A stretch of DNA of 64,000 nucleotides from Roseimaritima ulvae (lineage in GTDB: Bacteria > Planctomycetota > Planctomycetia > Pirellulales > Pirellulaceae). The DNA is taken from positions 2,108,001 to 2,172,000 of the forward strand of contig NZ_CP042914.1 in assembly GCF_008065135.1 (NCBI RefSeq), read 5' to 3'. Shown here piece after piece: positions 7,589-53,106 of the stretch (positions within the stretch are counted from its first letter, which is position 1; the number at the start of each line of letters is the position of its first letter). A model generated the notes under the pieces. It made no database searches, was not told the DNA's origin, and worked only from the letters and a program-made list of their open reading frames with translations. A program made the position numbers and the translations under genes.

Positions 7589-7878
7589 GTAGCCGAACTC
7601 GCCAGAGTTTGGGGGTCTCGGACTCTTCGTAGCCAGCCGCTCGGGACGTGAAACGTATTACTGCAGCATTGGGCATTGGAGCCTCATTCTTCACCCTCCT
7701 TGCTAAGGAGGGTCGAGCCTTAGCGAGGGGAGGTTCTTTTGCGGTGGCGCGGTCGCCCTCTCCTCGCTGACGCTCGACTCTCCCAGAGGGAGAGTGAAGT
7801 AAATCCCTCATTAATACACTTCACGTCCCGAGGGAGGATGTCGGTTGCAGCCATCCAAAGTCTGGCGACTTCGGCTAC
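7589..7878. repeat. Family B inverted-repeat pair split by an inserted element
   Basis: GTAGCCGAACTCGCCAGAGT begins the left arm (7589-7612); the right arm (7855-7878) is the near reverse complement, ending GGCGACTTCGGCTAC. The same pair occurs at 28824-28887 with only about 15 nt between the arms. Here the arms are 242 nt apart and enclose the terminal-inverted-repeat element at 7643-7829, suggesting that element landed within a pre-existing pair. Confidence 0.75.
7643..7829. mobile_element. MITE-like element with terminal inverted repeats, copy 1
   Basis: 187 bp bounded by GGGACGTGAAACGTATTA at the left and the near reverse complement TTAATACACTTCACGTCCC at the right. It encodes no protein. 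The interior has two palindromic CCTCCTT/AAGGAGG and CCCTCTC/GAGAGGG blocks plus the words CGACGCT-type and CTTAGCGAGGGGAGG. A second copy lies at 35093-35285 with the same ends and interior. Non-autonomous transposition is inferred from the structure; no transposase is in the window. Confidence 0.7.
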
Positions 7879-10966: not shown

Positions 10967-11184
10967 TCGTTTAACCCGCAGCCGCAGGAGCCTCGCATGG
11001 CCTACCATCGTCATTGCGTCAGGTAGGCTCCGCAGGCGCAGGCGTTTGCGGAGACGTCTGGCTAAATAGCATTTCACCCTCCCCTCGCTGACGCTCGACT
11101 CTCCCGGGGGGAGGGTGAAGGGTGGCCGTATGGCAATTCAATGCTTCTAAGTCAGGCGGCGCCTGCGGCTACGGGTTAAACGAT
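10967..11184. mobile_element. TIR element related to the 57.5-kb array
   Basis: The left end TCGTTTAACCCGCAGCCGCA and the right end TGCGGCTACGGGTTAAACGA are near-perfect inverted repeats, and both match the ends of the tandem array at 57535-58420. The interior differs: it carries a family C palindrome (11073-11120) and CGCAGGCG-rich words. No ORF of note. It fills the gap between the PQQ gene and the helicase gene. Confidence 0.7.
11073..11120. repeat. Family C palindromic repeat
   Basis: A 48-bp unit beginning TTCACCCTCCCCTCGCTGAC and ending GGGGGGAGGGTGAAG. Related units lie inside both MITE-like elements (7643-7829, 35093-35285), in part at about 20598-20635, and within the coding sequence of ccoI at 51646-51694. 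Confidence 0.8.
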
Positions 11185-34806: not shown

Positions 34807-35557
34807 GGCAAATTACCTAAGTTACAAGTATTGAAGTGATCGAAAAAGCGAAAGCAAAATGCCGCTCAACCTGCTCTGGAACGACCTGAGAAACCCTGGT
34901 CGACAAGAAACCGACTTGGGGTCGGTGTTTGCGTAGATTTCGCACTCACTGTTTCATTAAGAAGGTGAGAATCTATCGTCGTCCATAAAGATGGTCAACG
35001 GCTGTTGGGGTATTTTTCGGCGCTTTTTTGCAGCCCCCGCGGCAGAGCGGCTCGCGCGGCCGGCCGCAAGGCGCCCGCGACCTGTTCGGCGGGGGACGTG
35101 AAAGGTATTGCTGCAGCATTGGACCTTGGGGCCGCTTGCTTCACCCTCCTTTTAAGGAGGGTCGAGCCTTAGCGAGGGGAGGTTCTTTTGGTGCTTGCGG
35201 CGGCGCGGTCGCCCTCTCCTCGCTGACGCTCGACTCTCCCAGAGGGAGAGTGAAGTGAATCCGTCATTAATACACTTCACGTCCCGCGGCGAACCCAATG
35301 TCTTTGAACCCAGCAGGGTGGTGTTATGTGCGAACGCTGCTGGGCCTTCGGCCCGTCCGGAATTATTTCCCCGAAATGTGGCGTCAAAGTAGGTGGCGCT
35401 ATCGCCGGATCCCGCTCGCCAGCGGTTGCTATCACTCGCATATTCCGGGTTCATCGGCGGTTTTCCTGGGGCAACCGGGGACAAATAGCCGAATAATCGC
35501 TACGAGCGTCCTGGTCGCGTAACCCGGACCCATCGGTGCCTTCAGCCCCCGATCCGC
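34807..35557. other. Divergent intergenic region upstream of rpsJ
   Basis: 751 nt without a gene. It should contain the S10-operon promoter (nearest 150 nt to rpsJ, AT-rich around 34950-34990) and that of the gene at 35558. It also holds the second MITE-like element (35093-35285). I cannot fix promoter boxes by eye. Confidence 0.6.
35093..35285. mobile_element. MITE-like element with terminal inverted repeats, copy 2
   Basis: 193 bp with the same ends as 7643-7829: GGGACGTGAAAGGTATTGCT at the left and TTAATACACTTCACGTCCC at the right, and the same internal palindromes (GGAGGGTCGAGCCTTAGCGA and CGCTGACGCTCGACTCTCCC). It encodes no protein. It lies upstream of the S10 operon just as copy 1 lies upstream of rplK. 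Confidence 0.72.
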
Positions 35558-43401: not shown

Positions 43402-43890
43402 TTGTCTGTTCCTTGCCGTAAAGCCGTTCGGGTTATGTGGATGGTGTCTTTCTGTCACGGCTCTGCTGCTCCGCGGTTGCTGGGCTGGGGCAGGCGGTGA
43501 ATAAAACTGTACTGCAGTGTGCAGAATTGGTTCTGTACGTCAAGGTGTAGGATGGCCGTGGAGGTTCTGCTCCGCCGTTCGCTGAGCGGCAGGGCGAGGG
43601 AGCGTCGGGGCAGGAGACGAGGGATTGCCGGCCGCCCCCCCCCGGCACGGCGAACGCTTACAATGTGCGTCGTCGTCACGGTGCGGCGGGGCATAGTCGT
43701 GCGGTCTGGCGCGCCTGTTGGGCGTAGCTGCGACACGGTGCCACAGTGGGCGAGCCGGCGCAGCGTCGAAGTGCCGCGATTGGTTTTCGTTTGCGGAGCT
43801 TTGCGGTTTCCTCGCCTGCTGGTACTGTATTTGAACTGGTCCGTGACCAACGAGTTCTGTTCGTTGAATTTTGAGACTTCGAGTTTAAGC
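43402..43890. other. Divergent region upstream of the cbb3 oxidase locus
   Basis: 489 nt. An open frame joins ccoNO from 43519 but reads as Arg/Pro-rich nonsense, so it is treated as non-coding. It contains a run of nine C (43635-43643). The oxidase promoter is expected here; no TTGAT-N4-ATCAA Fnr/Anr box was found by eye. Confidence 0.5.
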
Positions 43891-46254
43891 ATGACAACCG
43901 ATATGGCGCAAGACGCACCGTCTGAGAAAGGTCCATCGTCGTCCCTGGCTGAGGAACGCATGGAGTCGTATTCGTACGACGACACGATTGTGCGTTTGTT
44001 TGTGACCGCCACGATATTTTGGGGTGCCGTCGCCACGTTGATGGGCTTGATTGTGGCCTTGTTGTTGGTGTTGCCGACGCTGGGGGGGGGCACGCCCTGG
44101 ATCTCGTTTGGCCGGTTGCGGCCGTTGCATACCAACGCAGCGATTTTTGCGTTTGCGGGCAACGGCATCTTTGCGGCCATCTATTACAGCACGCAGCGGT
44201 TGTGTAAGGCGCGGATGTGGAGTGACACCCTGAGTCAGCTGCACTTCTGGGGCTGGCAGGGGATCATCTTGGCGGCGGCAATCACTTTGCCGATGGGGAT
44301 TACGCAAGGCCGCGAGTACGCCGAGTTGGAATGGCCCATCGACATCGCCATCGCGGTGGTCTGGTTGCTGATTTTCGGCGGCAACTTTTTGATGACATTG
44401 ATCCATCGCCGCGAGCGTCACATGTACGTGGCTTTGTGGTTTTATATCGCCACGATCGTGACGGTGGCTTTGCTGCACGTGTTTAACAATTTGGTGGTGC
44501 CGGCCGGGTTGTTCAAAGGTTACAGCATCTACGCCGGGGTTCAGGACGCCTTCATGCAGTGGTGGTATGGGCACAACGCGGTGGCGTTTTTCTTGACCAC
44601 CCCCTTTTTAGGCTTGATGTACTACTTCCTGCCCAAAGCGGCCGAGCGTCCGGTGTTCAGTTATCGGTTGAGCATCATTCACTTCTGGTCGTTGGTGTTC
44701 ATCTATATCTGGGCCGGTCCGCACCACCTGCACTACACGGCCTTGCCGCAGTGGGCCTGCACGCTGGGGATGCTGTTCAGTGTGATGCTGTGGATGCCCA
44801 GCTGGGGCGGGATGTTAAACGGCTTGCTGACCCTGCGAGGCGCATGGCACAAGGTGGCGACGGATCCGGTGTTGAAGTTTTTTGTGGTCGGCGTGACGTT
44901 TTACGGGATGGCGACCTTTGAAGGGCCGATGCTGTCGATTCGCAGCGTCAACGCGCTCAGCCACTACACCGACTGGACGATCGCCCACGTGCACTCCGGC
45001 GCCTTGGGGTGGAACGGGTTCATGGTGTTTGGGATGATCTATTGGTTGCTGCCGCGGTTGTATCAGACCAAGATTTGGAGCGACCGATTGGTGGGGATCC
45101 ATTTTTGGACCGGCACGGTCGGGATTCTGTTGTACATCGTGCCGATCTATGCCGCTGGCTTGACGCAAGGCTTGATGTGGCGAGCCATGGACGACACCGG
45201 GCATCTGACCTATCCGCAATTCATTCTCACGCTCGAGCCGATTCTGCCGATGTGGTGGCTGCGTGTTCTTGGCGGAGCGTTGTACTTTGGCGGCGTGGTG
45301 ATGCTGGTCATTAATACTCTGATGACCTGGATGTCGCGTCCGGGAACTTATGAAGTGCCGGTGTACACCGCGCCCAAATTGACCAAGGAATACGCCGGCG
45401 ACGAGCAGCATCAGTCCAGCCGTTTGGACGACGCACCGGTGCTGGATTTGGCCAAGAAAGCGGACATCTGGGGCCGCATGGGCTGGCACCGGAAATGGGA
45501 ACGGCTGCCGGTCAAATTCACCGTGTTGACGACGCTCGCGGTGGTCATCGCCACGCTGTTTGAAGTCATTCCCACGTTCTTGATTAACAGCAACGTGCCC
45601 ACGATCGCCACGGTCAAACCTTACACGCCGCTGGAACTGGCCGGGCGACATCTGTATGTTTCCGAGGGCTGTTACAACTGCCATTCACAGATGATCCGGC
45701 CGATCGTGGCTGAGACTAAGCGATATGGCGATTACAGCAAACCAGGTGAGTTCATCTATGACCGTCCCTTCCAGTGGGGCAGTCGACGGATCGGCCCGGA
45801 CTTGGCGCGTGAAGGCGGCAAGCAGAGCAGTTTCTGGCACTGGACGCACTTCGAGAATCCCGAAAACGTCTCACCCGGTTCGGTGATGCCGGACTACCGT
45901 CACCTATTGCAAGAAGACCTGAACTACGACGCCATCGCGCCGCACGTGCAAGCCGCCGCGTACCTGGGGGCCCCGTACAGCGACGCCGACTTGAATGACA
46001 CCGCTGCGGTGGCCATGAAGCAAGCGGAATCGATCGCCGCCGACATCGTCCAGCAGGGCGGCCCGCCACTGACCTATGAGAAACAGGCGATCGCCCTGAT
46101 CGCTTACCTGCAACGCCTCGGTACGGATCTGTACCGCACCGAGGAACCCGACGTGGACGAAGCAGGGGAAGCGGCTGGAACCAGTGAAACAGCCGAGACC
46201 ACCGACCCCGCGGACGCTGACCAAACAGACGAACCCGAGGAGCCCCAGTCATGA
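43891..46254 (+). CDS. ccoNO: Fused cbb3 oxidase subunits I and II (CcoN-CcoO)
   Basis: 787 residues from ATG (MTTDMAQDAPSEKGPS) with GAG 9 nt upstream. Residues 1-480 are CcoN: twelve or so membrane helices with RLRPLHTNAAIFAFAGNGIF, VQDAFMQWWYGHNAVAFFLT, WAGPHHLHYTALPQW and DWTIAHVHSGALGWNGFMVF, which hold the haem and CuB ligands. From about 545 the CcoO part has a membrane anchor and the haem c site CYNCHSQMIRP at about 593. An acidic tail follows. Separate ccoN and ccoO genes are the rule in Proteobacteria, so this is a natural fusion. Its stop overlaps ccoQ by four bases. Confidence 0.96.
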   Translation: MTTDMAQDAPSEKGPSSSLAEERMESYSYDDTIVRLFVTATIFWGAVATLMGLIVALLLVLPTLGGGTPWISFGRLRPLHTNAAIFAFAGNGIFAAIYYSTQRLCKARMWSDTLSQLHFWGWQGIILAAAITLPMGITQGREYAELEWPIDIAIAVVWLLIFGGNFLMTLIHRRERHMYVALWFYIATIVTVALLHVFNNLVVPAGLFKGYSIYAGVQDAFMQWWYGHNAVAFFLTTPFLGLMYYFLPKAAERPVFSYRLSIIHFWSLVFIYIWAGPHHLHYTALPQWACTLGMLFSVMLWMPSWGGMLNGLLTLRGAWHKVATDPVLKFFVVGVTFYGMATFEGPMLSIRSVNALSHYTDWTIAHVHSGALGWNGFMVFGMIYWLLPRLYQTKIWSDRLVGIHFWTGTVGILLYIVPIYAAGLTQGLMWRAMDDTGHLTYPQFILTLEPILPMWWLRVLGGALYFGGVVMLVINTLMTWMSRPGTYEVPVYTAPKLTKEYAGDEQHQSSRLDDAPVLDLAKKADIWGRMGWHRKWERLPVKFTVLTTLAVVIATLFEVIPTFLINSNVPTIATVKPYTPLELAGRHLYVSEGCYNCHSQMIRPIVAETKRYGDYSKPGEFIYDRPFQWGSRRIGPDLAREGGKQSSFWHWTHFENPENVSPGSVMPDYRHLLQEDLNYDAIAPHVQAAAYLGAPYSDADLNDTAAVAMKQAESIAADIVQQGGPPLTYEKQAIALIAYLQRLGTDLYRTEEPDVDEAGEAAGTSETAETTDPADADQTDEPEEPQS

Positions 46255-46430
46255 TCAGAGACCTAGTGAGTTATTTGGACTATTCCATCTGTGCGGAATG
46301 GGCTCTGGGGCTGTTCTTCGCGGCCTTTACGGGAATTGTGTTTAGTGCCTTTCGACTAAGCCGCGACGCGTCGGAGCGTTTCGCGGCGATTGCGATCAGC
46401 GACCAAGTGGAGGACCCACGCGATGAGTGA
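46251..46430 (+). CDS. ccoQ: CcoQ-like small membrane subunit
   Basis: 59 residues, starting MIRDLVSYLDYSICAEWALG, with one membrane helix (ALGLFFAAFTGIVFSAF) and a short charged tail. Start overlaps the ccoNO stop (ATGA); the end overlaps ccoP by 8 nt. CcoQ stabilises the cbb3 complex in other bacteria. Identity rests on position, size and topology, because CcoQ sequences diverge strongly. Confidence 0.78.
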   Translation: MIRDLVSYLDYSICAEWALGLFFAAFTGIVFSAFRLSRDASERFAAIAISDQVEDPRDE

Positions 46431-47043
46431 TGCACCCCGTACCGGACATAATTACGACGGCATCGAAGAGTACGACAATCCACTGCCCGGTTGGTGGAAG
46501 TGGCTGTTCATCGGCACGATCGCGTTTTCGCCCTTCTATTGGGTCTATTACCACTCGGGCGTCGCAGGCCGCAGCGTGGAGGATCAATACGGGGTGGCAT
46601 TGGCGGCCGCCACGCGGTTGCAGTTTGCCGAAATCGGGGACCTGCAACCCGATACCGAAACGATTGCCCGATACATGCACAAAGACAACTGGGTGCGAGT
46701 CGGTCACTCGGTGTTTCAAGCCAACTGCATCTCCTGCCACGGGCGCGAAGGGGAAGGCCAAATCGGGCCCAACCTAACCGACGAGCATTTTAAGAACATC
46801 ACCACGCTGGCGGACATCGCTACGGTGATCAACAAGGGCGCTGGCAACGGTGCCATGCCGGCTTGGGCCAACCGCCTGCATCCCAACGAAATCGTGTTGG
46901 TGTCGGCTTACGTGGCCTCGCTGCGAGGCAAAGATCTTTCCGGTCCCCGGGGCCCTGAGGGACGCAACATCGCCCCCTGGCCCGAACCACCTCCGGAACC
47001 GGAAGAAGATGCCGACCAGGACGCAGCGGAACAGGATTCCTAA
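46423..47043 (+). CDS. ccoP: cbb3 oxidase subunit III, monoheme CcoP
   Basis: 206 residues from ATG (MSDAPRTGHNYDGIEEYDNP) with GGAGGA about 8 nt upstream. The start and DNPLPGWWKWLFIGTIAFSP membrane anchor are classic CcoP. Only one haem c motif is present (CISCH at about 105), with a Met ligand likely in AMPAWANRL, whereas proteobacterial CcoP has two. The Pro/Glu/Asp tail is low complexity. It passes electrons from a soluble donor to CcoO/CcoN. Confidence 0.93.
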   Translation: MSDAPRTGHNYDGIEEYDNPLPGWWKWLFIGTIAFSPFYWVYYHSGVAGRSVEDQYGVALAAATRLQFAEIGDLQPDTETIARYMHKDNWVRVGHSVFQANCISCHGREGEGQIGPNLTDEHFKNITTLADIATVINKGAGNGAMPAWANRLHPNEIVLVSAYVASLRGKDLSGPRGPEGRNIAPWPEPPPEPEEDADQDAAEQDS

Positions 47044-47076
47044 CTCCTAACCACCCCACCACCGCGGAGTCCTCTG

Positions 47077-48501
47077 ATGACGGCCACCGAGAACCAGCTG
47101 AATGGTTCATCGCAGTCCGAATCCCACGTGTTACCAACCGACGAGCACGTGTTGAGCACCTTGGAGCGAGATGGGGGCCGTCGTTGGTTGTCTCCGCTGC
47201 TGTCGACCGGATACTGGTGGCACCGGCGGCGGATGGTGGCGTATGTGTTGATGGTGGTGTTTGTCGCCATTCCTCATCTAAGATTGGGCGGCAAGCCGCT
47301 GATCCTGCTGGACATCGCGGCCCGTGAATTCACCATCCTGGGCAAAACCTTTCTGCCCACCGACACGGTGTTGTTGGCTCTGCTGATCCTCAGCGTGTTC
47401 ATCAGCATCGTCCTGATCACGGCCTTGGCCGGGCGGGCTTGGTGCGGTTGGGCGTGCCCGCAGACCGTGTATATGGAATATTTATTTCGGCCCATCGACC
47501 GCTTCTTCGACGGTGTTACTGGCAAAGGCGGACGTGCCAAAGCCGGACGGTCGCCGCTGTGGCAGGTAGCGCGAATCGCCGTGTATGTGTTGCTGAGCAT
47601 GTTTTTGGCGCACACATTTCTGGCTTACTTTGTCGGCACCGAACGGCTGGCGCTGTGGGTGCGTTCCTCGCCAGTAGAGCACCCCACGGCGTTTATCGTG
47701 ATGGCGGTGACCACCGGGGCCATGCTGTTCGACTTCCTGTATTTCCGCGAACAGATGTGCACGTTGGCCTGCCCCTACGGACGGTTTCAGTCGGTAATGT
47801 TGGATGAGCAATCGCTGATCGTTGCATACGATCCGGTCCGCGGCGAACCTCGGAAGAAAGGCAAGCATCGTCCCGGCGACGCGGCGGGCGACTGTGTGGA
47901 CTGCAACCGCTGTGTGGTGGTTTGTCCGACCGGCATCGACATCCGCCAAGGTTTGCAGATGGAATGCATTAACTGCACGCAGTGCATCGACGCCTGTGAC
48001 GACGTGATGCGCCGCGTGGGCACTCCGACGGGCTTGATTCGCTACAGTTCGCAAAACGCCATCGATCGCAAGCCGCAACGTTTCCTGCGAGCTCGCACGA
48101 TCATTTATCCGATCATCCTGGTGTTGGTATTCAGCGGTTTCGGGTATGCCTTGACCACCAAACGCGGTTTTGATGCGCGACTGATGCGTGGTAAGGGAGC
48201 GCCGTTTTCGATGTCCACCGTGGGCAACGTTTCCAATTCCTTCCAGATTCGGCTGGTCAACCGCACCGACCAAGACCAATCGTATCAGTTTACGATTTCG
48301 GGAATCGAGGGGGCCGAGTTATCGATCGTCGACGAGCAGTTATTGACGATCGAACCGGGAGGCAGCCGCGTCGTGCCCGTGACCGTCTCCTTTCCTGTCG
48401 GTTTAACGGCCGGGGATGGCAATCACTTGGGTGAGCTGGAAATTCGCGACGACAATGATCACCAACGCATCCTTTCCCTGCGTGTGCTAGGGCCCCGTTA
48501 G
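47077..48501 (+). CDS. ccoG: Cytochrome oxidase accessory protein CcoG/FixG
   Basis: 474 residues. GGAG 8 nt before the ATG. Membrane helices, CGWACPQTVYMEYLFRPID, CTLACPYGRFQSVMLDEQS and two 4Fe-4S clusters (CVDCNRCVVVCPTGIDIRQG and CINCTQCIDACDDVM). The C-terminal Ig-like IG-FixG domain is present. CcoG is a cupric reductase that helps copper reach the oxidase. It follows ccoP by 33 nt. Confidence 0.96.
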   Translation: MTATENQLNGSSQSESHVLPTDEHVLSTLERDGGRRWLSPLLSTGYWWHRRRMVAYVLMVVFVAIPHLRLGGKPLILLDIAAREFTILGKTFLPTDTVLLALLILSVFISIVLITALAGRAWCGWACPQTVYMEYLFRPIDRFFDGVTGKGGRAKAGRSPLWQVARIAVYVLLSMFLAHTFLAYFVGTERLALWVRSSPVEHPTAFIVMAVTTGAMLFDFLYFREQMCTLACPYGRFQSVMLDEQSLIVAYDPVRGEPRKKGKHRPGDAAGDCVDCNRCVVVCPTGIDIRQGLQMECINCTQCIDACDDVMRRVGTPTGLIRYSSQNAIDRKPQRFLRARTIIYPIILVLVFSGFGYALTTKRGFDARLMRGKGAPFSMSTVGNVSNSFQIRLVNRTDQDQSYQFTISGIEGAELSIVDEQLLTIEPGGSRVVPVTVSFPVGLTAGDGNHLGELEIRDDNDHQRILSLRVLGPR

Positions 48502-48522
48502 GGGAAAAGTGGAGTCCATCCA

Positions 48523-49041
48523 ATGAATTTAAATGCATCGCCCAATGCCTACGAAGCGGTCGCTGAACGCAAAGCCAAACGGTTTTGGGTCTCGCTCGTG
48601 GTGGGCTTGTTGAGCCTGCAGTTGGTGATCGGATACGTCGCCGTTCGGTTAGCCCTCGGCGACCCCACGGTGGCCATCGTGCCGGACTATCATCAAGCCG
48701 CACTGAACTGGGACAAACAACAAGCCGCGCTGACGGCGGCGGATCGGTTGGGTTTGGTGACCGACTTGGAAGTTTCTAAAGTGGCCGACTCTCAGGGAGT
48801 ACGTGCGATTTTATTCTCCATTAAGGACGACGACGGGCACTCCGTATCCGACCTGCAGGTAACCGCCACCGTGTACCGGCACGCTCGAGCGGGACAGCCA
48901 CAGACGGTGCCGCTGACCGACGTGGGCGACGGCAAATTCATGGCAACCACCTCGATGGCCGAGGCCGGATTGTGGCAGGTTGATCTGGAGGTACAAGGAG
49001 CGGCCGAGCCGATCCGAGTGTCTCGAGAATTTTCTCTCTAA
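48523..49041 (+). CDS. ccoH: FixH/CcoH-like assembly protein
   Basis: 172 residues with one N-terminal membrane helix (FWVSLVVGLLSLQLVIGYVA) and a periplasmic domain holding DYHQAALNWDKQQAALTAAD, the FixH signature, and a C-terminal LWQVDLEVQGAAEPIRVSRE. Needed for assembly of cbb3 oxidases in Rhizobia. It follows ccoG by 21 nt. Confidence 0.9.
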   Translation: MNLNASPNAYEAVAERKAKRFWVSLVVGLLSLQLVIGYVAVRLALGDPTVAIVPDYHQAALNWDKQQAALTAADRLGLVTDLEVSKVADSQGVRAILFSIKDDDGHSVSDLQVTATVYRHARAGQPQTVPLTDVGDGKFMATTSMAEAGLWQVDLEVQGAAEPIRVSREFSL

Positions 49042-49057
49042 CGACGGTTTCCGACGT

Positions 49058-49927
49058 ATGTGGTATTTGTTGTTCGCCATCGTCTCGGCCAGTCTGCTGG
49101 GCAGCCTGCACTGCGTCGGCATGTGTGGTCCGCTGGCGATTCTGGCCAGCGGCGCCGGCGCCGGTGTGCCGCGCCGGCGAGTGGCGTTGTCGACCGGGTT
49201 GTATCATCTGGGCCGCCTAAACACGTATTTGTTGGCAGGTTCGCTGGGAGGTTATCTTGGCAGCTTGGTCGACATCGGCGGTGAAATGATCGGTTGGCAA
49301 GTGACCGCGGCGCGGCTGGTGGGGCTGGCGATGGTGGTGATTGGAGCGGCCAAGCTGTGGTCGCGATGGTACGTAAAACCGGCGGTCGGACAGCCCAAAC
49401 CCTCGCTGGTCGCCGGAGCCTTGGTGCGACTGCGGCCGCTGCTGGCCAAACGTTCGCCGACGGTACGAGCTTACGGCATCGGCTTCTTGACGACCTTCCT
49501 GCCCTGCGGCTGGTTGTACTTGTTCGCGTTGGTCGCGGCGGCCACCGGCAGTGCGGCGATGGGCGCTTTGGTGATGTTTGCCTTCTGGATCGGCACGCTG
49601 CCGGCGCTGACCAGCTTGATCGCCGGAGCGGGCTGGCTGTCGAAGCGGTCGGCTGGATTTGTGCCGATCACCACGGCGGTGTTGCTGATGTTGACCGGCT
49701 GTTTCACCTTCACCGGACGCGGATTCGCCGCCATGGATTCGCTGGAAAGCCTCCGCGGCGCGGCCCTAACTGCGCCGCTCGATGCGGCCACTCAGCAACT
49801 CGCTCCGGCCGCCGACCCAGCGGCGTTGCTCGAACACGTGCACGGCGTCGGCGAAGTGGAACTGCCCTGTTGCCGAGCGGCGCGGGAAGCGGCCGAGGCG
49901 CTCGCCGCCGAGGAAGCCAACGAATGA
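49058..49927 (+). CDS. SafE/DsbD-like membrane protein of the oxidase locus
   Basis: 289 residues from ATG (MWYLLFAIVSASLLGSLHCV), 16 nt after ccoH. Six or so membrane helices with SLHCVGMCGPLAIL and LTTFLPCGWLYLFALVAAAT, the two Cys-bearing motifs of the sulfite exporter TauE/SafE group (COG2836), many of which sit beside ccoGHIS and are thought to aid copper or thiol transfer. The C-terminal tail HVHGVGEVELPCC contains His and a Cys pair, a possible metal site. Its stop overlaps the ccoI start. Confidence 0.88.
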   Translation: MWYLLFAIVSASLLGSLHCVGMCGPLAILASGAGAGVPRRRVALSTGLYHLGRLNTYLLAGSLGGYLGSLVDIGGEMIGWQVTAARLVGLAMVVIGAAKLWSRWYVKPAVGQPKPSLVAGALVRLRPLLAKRSPTVRAYGIGFLTTFLPCGWLYLFALVAAATGSAAMGALVMFAFWIGTLPALTSLIAGAGWLSKRSAGFVPITTAVLLMLTGCFTFTGRGFAAMDSLESLRGAALTAPLDAATQQLAPAADPAALLEHVHGVGEVELPCCRAAREAAEALAAEEANE

Positions 49928-52476
49928 TCGAACAGCTCGGCTCGCACCCTTCGGATGCCGACGCGCCGGAGCCGGACGCGGATGCCGGCTGCAGCGCCGC
50001 TCGCTTGCCCTGTCGGCACTGCGGTTTATCCACGCCCTGTGCGGTCGGTGTTGATCCGGAAACCGTGTTCTGTTGCAACGGTTGCCGCGGTGCGTACCAA
50101 CTGATTCAAGGTTGGGGACTGGGATCGTTTTATGCGCTGCGGGATAGCAATACCACTTCGGCGACCCCTACGGCCGGTTCCAGCGAGGCGGCGTTGGAGG
50201 TGTTTGACAACGATGAGTTCCTGGGGGATTCGAAACCGCGTCCGCAGAGCGACGGGTTGTACCAAACCGATCTGGCCTTGCTGGGGCTGCACTGTGCGGC
50301 CTGCGCTTGGTTGATCGAAAACGTAGCCTCCCAAACGGCGGGCTGGCACGCGGCGAGGGTCAAGTTGAGCGACCACACGATCCGCATCGTGTTTGACCCG
50401 CAGAAGCTGAAGCTGAGCGAGATCGCGCGGCTGTTGCGGCGTGTGGGGTATGAACTCACGCCTTTGTCTAACGATCGCAACGACGCGTACCAGCAACAGA
50501 ATCGCAAGCTGTTGATGAACATCGCCGTGGCCGGGTTTTGTGCCGCCAACGCGATGTGGATCGCGATCGGGCTGTACGCGGGCGAGGCGACTTGGGTGGC
50601 CGGTGAACATCGCACGTTCTTTCGCTTGATCGGCACCGGACTGGGGATCGCCGCCGTGCTGTTGCCGGGTCGGACGTTCCTGGTAGGGGCTCTGGCGGCC
50701 TTGCGGACCCGCACGCCGCACATGGATTTGCCCGTAGCGTTGGGTTTGACGGTCGGTTCGCTGGCGGGGCTGATCAACGTCTTACAGGATCGCGGGGAAG
50801 TTTATTTCGACTCGCTGGCCGTGTTGGTGTTTTTGTTGTTGATCGGACGCTGGTTGCAGTTTCATCAGCAGCACCGAGCGGCTCGATCGGTCGACCTATT
50901 GCTGCGAATCACCCCACGACACGCTCATCGCCTGGCCGCCGATGGAACCGTCGCGGTGGTGTTGGCTGATCGCTTGCGAGCCGGTGACACGGTGCGGATC
51001 GCGGCGGGAGATAGTTTGCCCGCCGATGGCCGGATCACCCGCGGTCAGTCGCTGGTCGATCGTTCTTTGCTGACCGGAGAAAGCCATCCGGTGCGAGTGG
51101 TCGAGGGCGACGAGGTGGAAGCGGGAATTGTGAACCTGCAAAGCGAATTGGACGTGGAGGTCACGGCCAGCGGGCAGGACAGCCGCATCGGCCAAGTCAT
51201 GCAGAGCGTTGCCGAAGCGGCCGGTGAGCGGACGCCGATCGTCCAACTGGCCGATCGGATTGGAGGCGTGTTTGTGGTTGTGGTTTCGACCCTGGCCCTG
51301 CTGACCTTCGCGGCTTGGCTGACGGTCGATTGGCAAACCGCGGCGTCGGCGGCCACCTCTCTGTTGATCGTGGCTTGCCCATGTGCCCTGGCTCTGGCGA
51401 CTCCCTTGGCCGTGGCAGTCGCCATCGGCAAATCGGCACGGCAAAAGATTTTTATTCGCGACGGCAGTACTTTCGGGCAACTGGCCAAGCCCGGCACGAT
51501 CTGGTTCGACAAAACGGGTACGTTGACCGAAGGCAGGTTGTCGGCTCGGCTGTTGCAAGGTGACCGGCAAACGCTGGCGCTGGCCGCGGCGGTCGAACGC
51601 GGTTGCCAACACCCGATCGCCGCTGCAATCATCCGCGAAGCAGAACTTCACCCTCCCTCTGGGAGGGTCGAGCGTCAGCGAGGGGAGGGCGAAGTACTGC
51701 CCCCACCTCCTCCCACGGCTCAATCCGTCACGGTCGAAGTCGGCGGCGTGCGGGGGCGTTATCAGGGACACTCGCTGGCGGTCGGAAACCTGGATTTTTT
51801 AACGCGTCAGAACGTGGTGATCGGCGCAGCCACAGAGGATGCGATCGAGCGTTGTTTGGCTGACGGCAGCAGTCCGATTCTGATCGCCGTCGATGGGGTG
51901 GCTGCGGCTACATTGGCCGTTTCGGACGAACTAAAAACCGACGCTCGAGCGATGATCGAACGTTGGACGCAAGCGGGCTGGGAAGTGGGAATTTTGTCGG
52001 GCGACCATCCGGACATCGTCGATCGGATCGGGCACCGCTTAGGGTTGCCGGCGGCAGCTTGCCGCGGTGGGTTATCGCCCGAAGACAAACTGAGCATCGT
52101 CCGCGACAGCACGGCGGCAACGACCGTGATGGTCGGGGATGGGGCCAACGATGCAGCGGCCTTGGCGGCGGCGGACGTGGGCATCGCCGTGCGTGGCGGC
52201 GCGGAGGTCAGCTTGCGAGCCGCGCCGGTGTTTGTCGCTTCAGGGGGCCTGTCCGCGTTGGGCCGACTGGTGCACGCCGCCCGCAACACCACGGCTTTGA
52301 TCTATACCGCTTTTGCGGTCTCGTTGACGTATAATCTGATCGCCGTCGGATTGGCGATGGCCGGACTAATCAGCCCACTGGTGGCCGCCGTGCTGATGCC
52401 CATCAGTTCGGTCAGCGTGTTGTCGTTGTGTTTTCTGTGGCCGATCTATTCCTCTTCGCAAAGGACCGCATCGTGA
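49924..52476 (+). CDS. ccoI: Copper-exporting P1B-type ATPase CcoI
   Basis: 850 residues from the ATG that overlaps the upstream stop (ATGA); a frame open to 49294 is rejected. N-terminal Cys cluster (CRHCG, then CCNGCRGAYQLI), an HMA-like segment with LHCAACAWLI near residue 125, membrane helices with the ion-binding VACPCALALATPLA at about 482, DKTGTLTEG at about 530, the HP motif and MVGDGANDAAAL at about 736. It loads copper for cbb3. Between the HP motif and the next conserved block lies a 49-bp family C repeat (51646-51694) that is translated as an extra loop. Confidence 0.94.
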   Translation: MIEQLGSHPSDADAPEPDADAGCSAARLPCRHCGLSTPCAVGVDPETVFCCNGCRGAYQLIQGWGLGSFYALRDSNTTSATPTAGSSEAALEVFDNDEFLGDSKPRPQSDGLYQTDLALLGLHCAACAWLIENVASQTAGWHAARVKLSDHTIRIVFDPQKLKLSEIARLLRRVGYELTPLSNDRNDAYQQQNRKLLMNIAVAGFCAANAMWIAIGLYAGEATWVAGEHRTFFRLIGTGLGIAAVLLPGRTFLVGALAALRTRTPHMDLPVALGLTVGSLAGLINVLQDRGEVYFDSLAVLVFLLLIGRWLQFHQQHRAARSVDLLLRITPRHAHRLAADGTVAVVLADRLRAGDTVRIAAGDSLPADGRITRGQSLVDRSLLTGESHPVRVVEGDEVEAGIVNLQSELDVEVTASGQDSRIGQVMQSVAEAAGERTPIVQLADRIGGVFVVVVSTLALLTFAAWLTVDWQTAASAATSLLIVACPCALALATPLAVAVAIGKSARQKIFIRDGSTFGQLAKPGTIWFDKTGTLTEGRLSARLLQGDRQTLALAAAVERGCQHPIAAAIIREAELHPPSGRVERQRGEGEVLPPPPPTAQSVTVEVGGVRGRYQGHSLAVGNLDFLTRQNVVIGAATEDAIERCLADGSSPILIAVDGVAAATLAVSDELKTDARAMIERWTQAGWEVGILSGDHPDIVDRIGHRLGLPAAACRGGLSPEDKLSIVRDSTAATTVMVGDGANDAAALAAADVGIAVRGGAEVSLRAAPVFVASGGLSALGRLVHAARNTTALIYTAFAVSLTYNLIAVGLAMAGLISPLVAAVLMPISSVSVLSLCFLWPIYSSSQRTAS
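51646..51694. repeat. Family C repeat within the ccoI coding sequence
   Basis: CTTCACCCTCCCTCTGGGAG begins and AGCGAGGGGAGGGCGAAG ends this 49-bp unit, matching intergenic copies at 11073-11120 (inverse orientation) and in both MITE-like elements. It is translated as HPPSGRVERQRGEGE between EAEL and VLPPPPPTAQ, and the frame of the ATPase is kept, with the Pro-rich stretch that follows also lacking family similarity. Confidence 0.9.
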
Positions 52477-52658: not shown

Positions 52659-53106
52659 CTGCGGGGCCGCTGTCGCGAATTAATCAGCTGTTTAGCAGCG
52701 ACAAGCTGTCGTTGCATTCGGCCAAGATCATCGCCGATGCAGGTCGGTTTCGCCATCGACCAACGCCTCTCGTACCATGGGCCCCCGGCCCGTGGAAAAG
52801 CGCACAAGTAGCATGGGCCCCCGGCCCGTGTAAAAACGCACAAGTAGCATGGGCCCCCGGCCCGTGGGAAAGCGCACACGGGCCGGGGACCCATGCTACA
52901 TCGAAGGACCGCACACGGGCCGGGGGCCCATGCTACATCGAAGGACCGCACGCGGGCCGAGCGTCGTACTCACCCTGAAATTCGTGCTCCAACCATTTTT
53001 CTGTGTAACAGGCTGTGGACGATTTCGCTTCCTCTGTTGACTGCGTTCGTGCAACGCGGTTTCGAAAATTAGGTCCATCTCGTACGAATTATCGGGGGAA
53101 GAAGCG
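52659..53106. other. Intergenic region with GC-rich palindromic repeats
   Basis: 448 nt. It contains the family F array (52773-52970), and before it the string GCGACAAGCTGTCG as a possible small stem. No gene. A good ribosome binding site (GGGGGAAG) lies at its right end, before 53107. Confidence 0.7.
52773..52970. repeat. Family F array, three direct and two inverted units
   Basis: CATGGGCCCCCGGCCCGTG starts at about 52776, 52813 and 52848 (direct). Their inverse CACGGGCCGGGGACCCATG and its neighbour CACGGGCCGGGGGCCCATG follow at about 52877 and 52914. Each is almost palindromic. Direct and inverted units can pair into one large stem, which may act as a transcription barrier after ccoS. Confidence 0.85.

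Follow-up and report, generated by a model that had tools for sequence, protein, structure and literature searches.

A REP-like palindromic repeat is read in frame inside the copper ATPase CcoI and other proteins of Roseimaritima ulvae

The ccoI locus of Roseimaritima ulvae raises the question of how an interspersed repeat that otherwise lies between genes comes to be read as protein in the nucleotide-binding domain of a copper pump, and whether the peptide that it encodes is a tolerated insertion or has been recruited for a function. We analyzed a window of 64,000 nucleotides from the R. ulvae genome (8,212,515 bases in one contig; G+C content reported as 59.1% for strain UC8, PMC7716947). 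In this window ccoI (or fixI; 49924..52476, + strand, with the start taken from our own script) is an open frame of 850 aa with a coding score of 129.5 in our gene caller, and its predicted product carries ATPase-cat_bd, HMA, E1-E2_ATPase and hydrolase (HAD-type) domains together with the catalytic motifs CPC, DKTGT, TGE, HP and GDG, all present in the alignment. Upstream on the same strand lies a set of cco genes (43801..49927) identified by Pfam and given Cco names by us, namely a COX1-FixO fusion that we read as CcoN-CcoO (43801-46254), CcoP (FixP-type; 46423-47043), CcoG (FixG-type; 47077-48501), CcoH (FixH; 48523-49041) and a DsbD_2-family membrane protein (49058-49927). The four domains and these adjoining genes of a cbb3 operon identify the product as a CcoI/FixI P1B-type copper ATPase.

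Within this frame, a 49-bp palindromic repeat (CTTCACCCTCCCTCTGGGAGGGTCGAGCGTCAGCGAGGGGAGGGCGAAG; 51646-51694, + strand) begins 11 residues past the HP motif of the nucleotide-binding domain (H563-P564; 51610..51615, + strand). It is translated as LHPPSGRVERQRGEGE, residues 575-590, with its last base beginning codon 591, and is followed by the rest of the loop, the Pro-rich residues 591-599 (51694..51720, + strand). The initial annotation had described a repeat translated without a break in the frame between the HP motif and the next conserved block, and both the reading and, by alignment, the position are borne out. It had also related the unit to intergenic copies in the window, a relation that we could reproduce, as a 29-bp stretch of the ccoI repeat matches intergenic positions 7756-7784, 11077-11105 and 35212-35240 (all on the - strand, 1-2 mismatches) and the largest number in 100 shuffles was 0. 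A profile search of the window revealed six copies in all: inverted pairs within longer composites at 7690-7735 (+) with 7754-7799 (-) and at 35140-35183 (+) with 35210-35255 (-), a single copy at 11071-11120 (-), and the copy inside ccoI (profile bounds 51646-51693, + strand). All but the last are intergenic, and the three on the - strand are those that hold the 29-bp matches.

Evaluating the whole genome, we found 369 matches to a 27-bp core of the family at ≤3 mismatches, 43 of them exact, across 8.21 Mb, where the reversed control pattern gave 0. The ccoI copy matches this core exactly, and with both the shuffles and the reversed control at 0 we rejected a chance resemblance of the ccoI stretch to the repeat. 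We then located copies relative to genes in a sample made up of the window and 100 stretches of 20 kb taken at one per 80 kb (2.064 Mb in total, 83% of it coding by the gene calls of our own hexamer script). This sample held 118 copies, which extrapolates to ~470 in the whole genome. Of the 118, 115 were intergenic, 1 was partial and 2 lay inside genes; leaving out the window, which had been chosen for this very finding, 110 of 112 were intergenic, 1 was partial and 1 lay inside a gene, so that the repeat does normally live between genes, as had been supposed. Such scarcity inside genes presumably reflects purging, and a bias toward intergenic targets would give an identical picture.

The units are 43-50 bp long and the 118 copies fall into 78 clusters, namely 40 singles, 2 triples and 36 pairs, every pair being inverted in the order + then -. 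Of the 112 copies to which a called gene could be assigned on either side, pair members not being independent, 39 lay in convergent, 53 in one-direction and 20 in divergent gaps, for which the sample holds 62.1, 173.3 and 86.7 kb of gap DNA, respectively. For a consensus-like form the fold is a 13-bp terminal stem with z -3.2, and z values of -3.2 and -4.0 were obtained for two intergenic stretches in the window; the ccoI copy, taken as a single DNA strand, does not outdo its shuffles (z -0.6). Because an identical inner unit recurs in 21 of the 118 sampled copies, the sequences suggest that the spread was recent. Only some of the clusters have larger outer inverted arms of the GGAGACGCCTGACTTA and GGGACGTGAA types, 28 of the 78 lacking any, and in the window, composite intergenic elements of ~190 bp (7643-7829 and 35093-35285) have GGGACGTGAA-type ends around the inverted repeat pair.

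Comparison with orthologues showed the segment from HP to GN to be 58 aa in this CcoI, which is 15 above the mode of 43 among 33 orthologue rows (43 aa in 17 rows, 47-80 aa in the other 16; 50, 43 and 43 aa in three congeners, R. sediminicola having the 50). The repeat itself was found at none of 34 other ccoI orthologue loci, the three congeners included. In 8 of the 33 rows the segment is as long as here or longer without the repeat, and the site therefore tolerates changes in length. The initial annotation had asked whether relatives lack the loop, and it had named as a refuting case repeat-free orthologues with the same loop in unrelated codons. Of that case one part is seen, since these eight rows have equally long or longer segments of unrelated sequence, and one is not, the repeat-coded loop being absent elsewhere; a long loop at this site is thus not special, whereas the repeat-coded one is.

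A scan in which 15 residues were excised and the remainder scored against 13 orthologues of 43 residues placed the best window four residues downstream of the repeat-coded one, with 11 residues out of 15 in common with the repeat; for the top eight windows this overlap ranges from 7 to 15 residues, conservation in the loop being too low to define borders. Counting against an insertion, the gain over the modal segment amounts to 45 bp and so falls short of the 49-bp unit, the segment of R. sediminicola is of intermediate length, and among the relatives, the nearest orthologue found being that of R. sediminicola at 68% protein identity, no empty ccoI site was seen at the DNA level. A stop suspected in the G038 orthologue turned out to be the natural end of the gene. 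The Pro-rich stretch after the repeat had been thought foreign as well, a suggestion that did not hold up: loops with Pro residues are found near this position in several repeat-free orthologues (TPPDDAEL, LPQDAR, VPTNAQL, LPISARL), and the stretch is therefore probably native.

A segment that ranges from 43 to 80 aa across 33 orthologue rows, at loci without the repeat, would be in keeping with a loop that had grown in place, through slippage or another expansion, and had come to resemble the repeat by chance. We consider this exceedingly improbable, as the 27-bp core recurs exactly at 42 further positions in the genome with the reversed control and the shuffles both at 0, and the exactness of the match speaks strongly against it. 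The repeat in ccoI more plausibly came by insertion.

To this we add the structure of the protein as predicted by AlphaFold2 from a 36-sequence alignment (mean pLDDT 84). In the model, residues 576-599 are without secondary structure, between a helix (564-575) and a strand (600-605), and the ten-residue mean pLDDT falls from 84 (571-580) to 51 (581-590) and 65 (591-600) before rising to 86 (601-610). The model matches P1B ATPases at Z 26-28, with 3rfu and 4bbj at Z 26 over ~630 aligned residues and an rmsd of 6-7; with other P-type ATPases at Z 25-26, the fold match by itself is not specific for the P1B type. Sequence alignments with 3rfu and 3j09 have gaps within the repeat.

An insert in the nucleotide-binding domain only 11 residues after the HP motif could be taken as a sign that ccoI is decaying or that its product is inactive. 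The intact 850-aa frame, the five catalytic motifs, the coding score, the cco genes upstream and the match of the model to P1B ATPases all argue otherwise, and we regard such loss of function as very improbable. Only slightly less improbable, in our judgment, is exaptation, in which the repeat-coded loop would have been recruited, for example for regulation of the nucleotide-binding domain or for a protein contact. An exact family core in a gene that follows a set of cco genes would suit such a role, but an exact core is equally expected from a young insertion, no other orthologue locus has the repeat, the segment varies in length within the family, and the modelled loop is of low confidence and without structure. 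Of the two possibilities first offered for this locus, tolerated insertion or exaptation, the evidence thus favors the former, through the 15 aa over the mode and the stretch modelled without secondary structure, and counts against the latter, through the absence of the repeat from the 34 other loci.

We therefore hold with considerable confidence that ccoI carries a REP-like repeat as a tolerated in-frame insertion that lengthens a flexible loop, and that the pump most likely works. Under this explanation, a lineage-restricted REP-like palindrome of ~43-50 bp, single or in inverted pairs, has multiplied to several hundred copies in R. ulvae, presumably moved by a mobilizing enzyme. Nearly all surviving copies are intergenic, and the few genic ones are in frame and use the most hydrophilic peptide frame for their orientation. 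The copy in ccoI would add ~15 aa to the flexible loop of the nucleotide-binding domain that joins the HP helix to the following strand, and the protein would most likely still be made and active.

The reading of the repeat as protein sequence is not unique to ccoI, something the initial annotation could not have seen from its stretch of DNA. We used the peptides encoded by the open frames as queries against the genome and read the listed matches, up to 150 per query, in frames of at least 300 aa and some shorter ones, which revealed, among the matches so listed and read, at least nine in-frame copies in at least seven genes, ccoI included. The six others, named by Pfam where a match existed, are a Ser/Thr kinase-TPR protein (locus L344), a 456-aa protein with no Pfam match (L342), a 3-hydroxyacyl-CoA dehydrogenase (L361), a V-ATPase subunit I-like protein carrying three consecutive copies (L330), a PD-(D/E)XK nuclease that we read as AddB/RecB-like (L224) and a squalene-hopene-cyclase-like protein (L029). 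In the V-ATPase subunit I-like gene the three copies alternate in a long in-frame, insert-like stretch (L330:4133-4322) in which one unit is a variant (LHPPSGRVARNERGGF).

Several of these proteins are shorter in congeners, in lengths derived by arithmetic on alignment coordinates where the joined query runs slightly past its seams. At the insert, 30 and 31 aa are missing from the cyclase-like protein in two congeners and 33 aa from the 456-aa protein in one. For the aligned segment of the dehydrogenase two congeners are shorter by 15 and 11 aa, and for the nuclease two are shorter by 32 and 23 aa, although R. sediminicola, against an insertion there, shows no length difference. The segments of the kinase-TPR and V-ATPase-like proteins gave no congener match.

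The frames in use follow a simple pattern. The ccoI copy is open in five of its six frames. All five sense copies are read as LHPPSGRVERQRGEGE and all four antisense copies as (S/N)PPLAxARPSQGE. On hydropathy and disorder scales, these two frames rank highest of the five in hydrophilicity and in propensity for disorder. If the five frames were equally likely, all seven genes would fall in these two with a chance of (2/5)^7 = 0.0016, in a test that was post hoc. For the three other open frames, the only matches read within called genes were those at L339 and at the start of the prepilin-like gene at L338. One could extend this pattern to propose that the repeat has been kept translatable, its hydrophilic linker frames being a genome-wide supply of ready-made loop peptides and the element itself selected for harmless translation, an idea that we consider unlikely. 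The seven genes with one frame per orientation make a more interesting result than the ccoI copy alone, if still one of a known kind. They offer a set for testing the neutrality of such inserts, and the pattern is a simple, testable sign of inserts that selection lets through.

Some further matches were not counted as genic: the copies at L262 and L338, which are partial overlaps; two at L339, where the open reading frame scores low (5) and one copy is in the LHPPSGRVERQRGEG frame; and the match at L342:1032-1050, which we took as chance (E 0.005). A decayed copy of 44 bp in a HisA-like protein (L329:567-610) was also left uncounted; it appears to be read as LYPSARKDERQRGED, and congeners are 3-11 aa shorter. 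Several copies fall outside the called genes but within long open frames, as at L331, 93 bp before a called start, and N-terminal extensions may therefore have been missed.

The distribution of the repeat, searched for close forms of the core (≤2 mismatches in the family, ≤3 in the phylum), is narrow. At ≤2 mismatches it was found in 3 of 60 family genomes, with 244 matches in R. ulvae itself, 20 in G014, 5 in G038 and 0 in the congener G001; at ≤3 mismatches it was found in 1 of 294 phylum genomes, that of R. ulvae, in a sample that had no row for G014 and G038. By this search, close forms of the repeat are confined to the R. ulvae lineage and a few more within its family.

Among known repeats, the family agrees with REPs in the broad sense, being a short, imperfect, high-copy palindrome that is mainly intergenic and occurs as singles and inverted dimers, with a length of 43-50 bp slightly over the 20-40 bp given in one definition (PMC3733652). 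The GTAG/CGTC REPs described in that source are likewise short high-copy palindromes, mostly intergenic, in singles and dimers and mainly between unidirectional and convergent genes, with a minority inside ORFs of unrelated proteins. Intragenic members are known in several bacteria, the verrucomicrobium O. terrae having the most intragenic GTAG REPs, and recBCD genes are among their targets (PMC3733652), which may be set beside the AddB/RecB-like nuclease here. Unlike these REPs, the R. ulvae repeat has no GTAG/CGTC at a fixed end of the 49-bp unit: GTAG reaches at best 7 of 118 copies at one fixed position, and CGTC lies within the unit in 59 of 118. GACG, the complement of CGTC, occurs at fixed flanking positions in ≤21 of 118, the commonest positions including some at least 10 bases outside the profile.

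Palindromic elements of Rickettsia are also translated inside proteins (PMC10969869), in frame within unrelated genes to which they add a peptide, as the R. ulvae repeat does. We set the two apart by description, as the Rickettsia elements are ~150 bp with nearly half in ORFs (PMC10969869), in contrast to 43-50 bp and 1 of 112 sampled copies inside a gene in R. ulvae. The repeat thus acts like the Rickettsia elements and the intragenic REPs while being itself new, untagged and lineage-restricted; no earlier report of it, or of such repeats in Roseimaritima, was found in the mostly open-access literature. A free-living, large-genome planctomycete would with this join the bacteria in which interspersed palindromes are translated inside ordinary proteins.

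REPINs are inverted pairs of a short hairpin unit and are associated with RAYT transposases. The inverted pairs in R. ulvae have this arrangement, but whereas 13 Y1-transposase matches exist in the genome (RAYTs not being distinguished among them), no repeat copy lies within 1.5 kb of the 12 Y1 loci examined, and these neighborhoods did not yield the mobilizing enzyme.

Two observations lie beside the main argument. At L338:9416-9463 (genome near 3487415-3487462), a copy stands right where a gene with a prepilin N-methylation motif begins, and because the repeat has at its end a GTG from which this frame can be opened (VKVRHGFTLIEL), the repeat may supply the start codon and leader of the prepilin-like gene. 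Just downstream of ccoI, at 52770-52960 of the window, another repeat consists of near-identical direct and inverted units around GCATGGGCCCCCGGCCCGTG.
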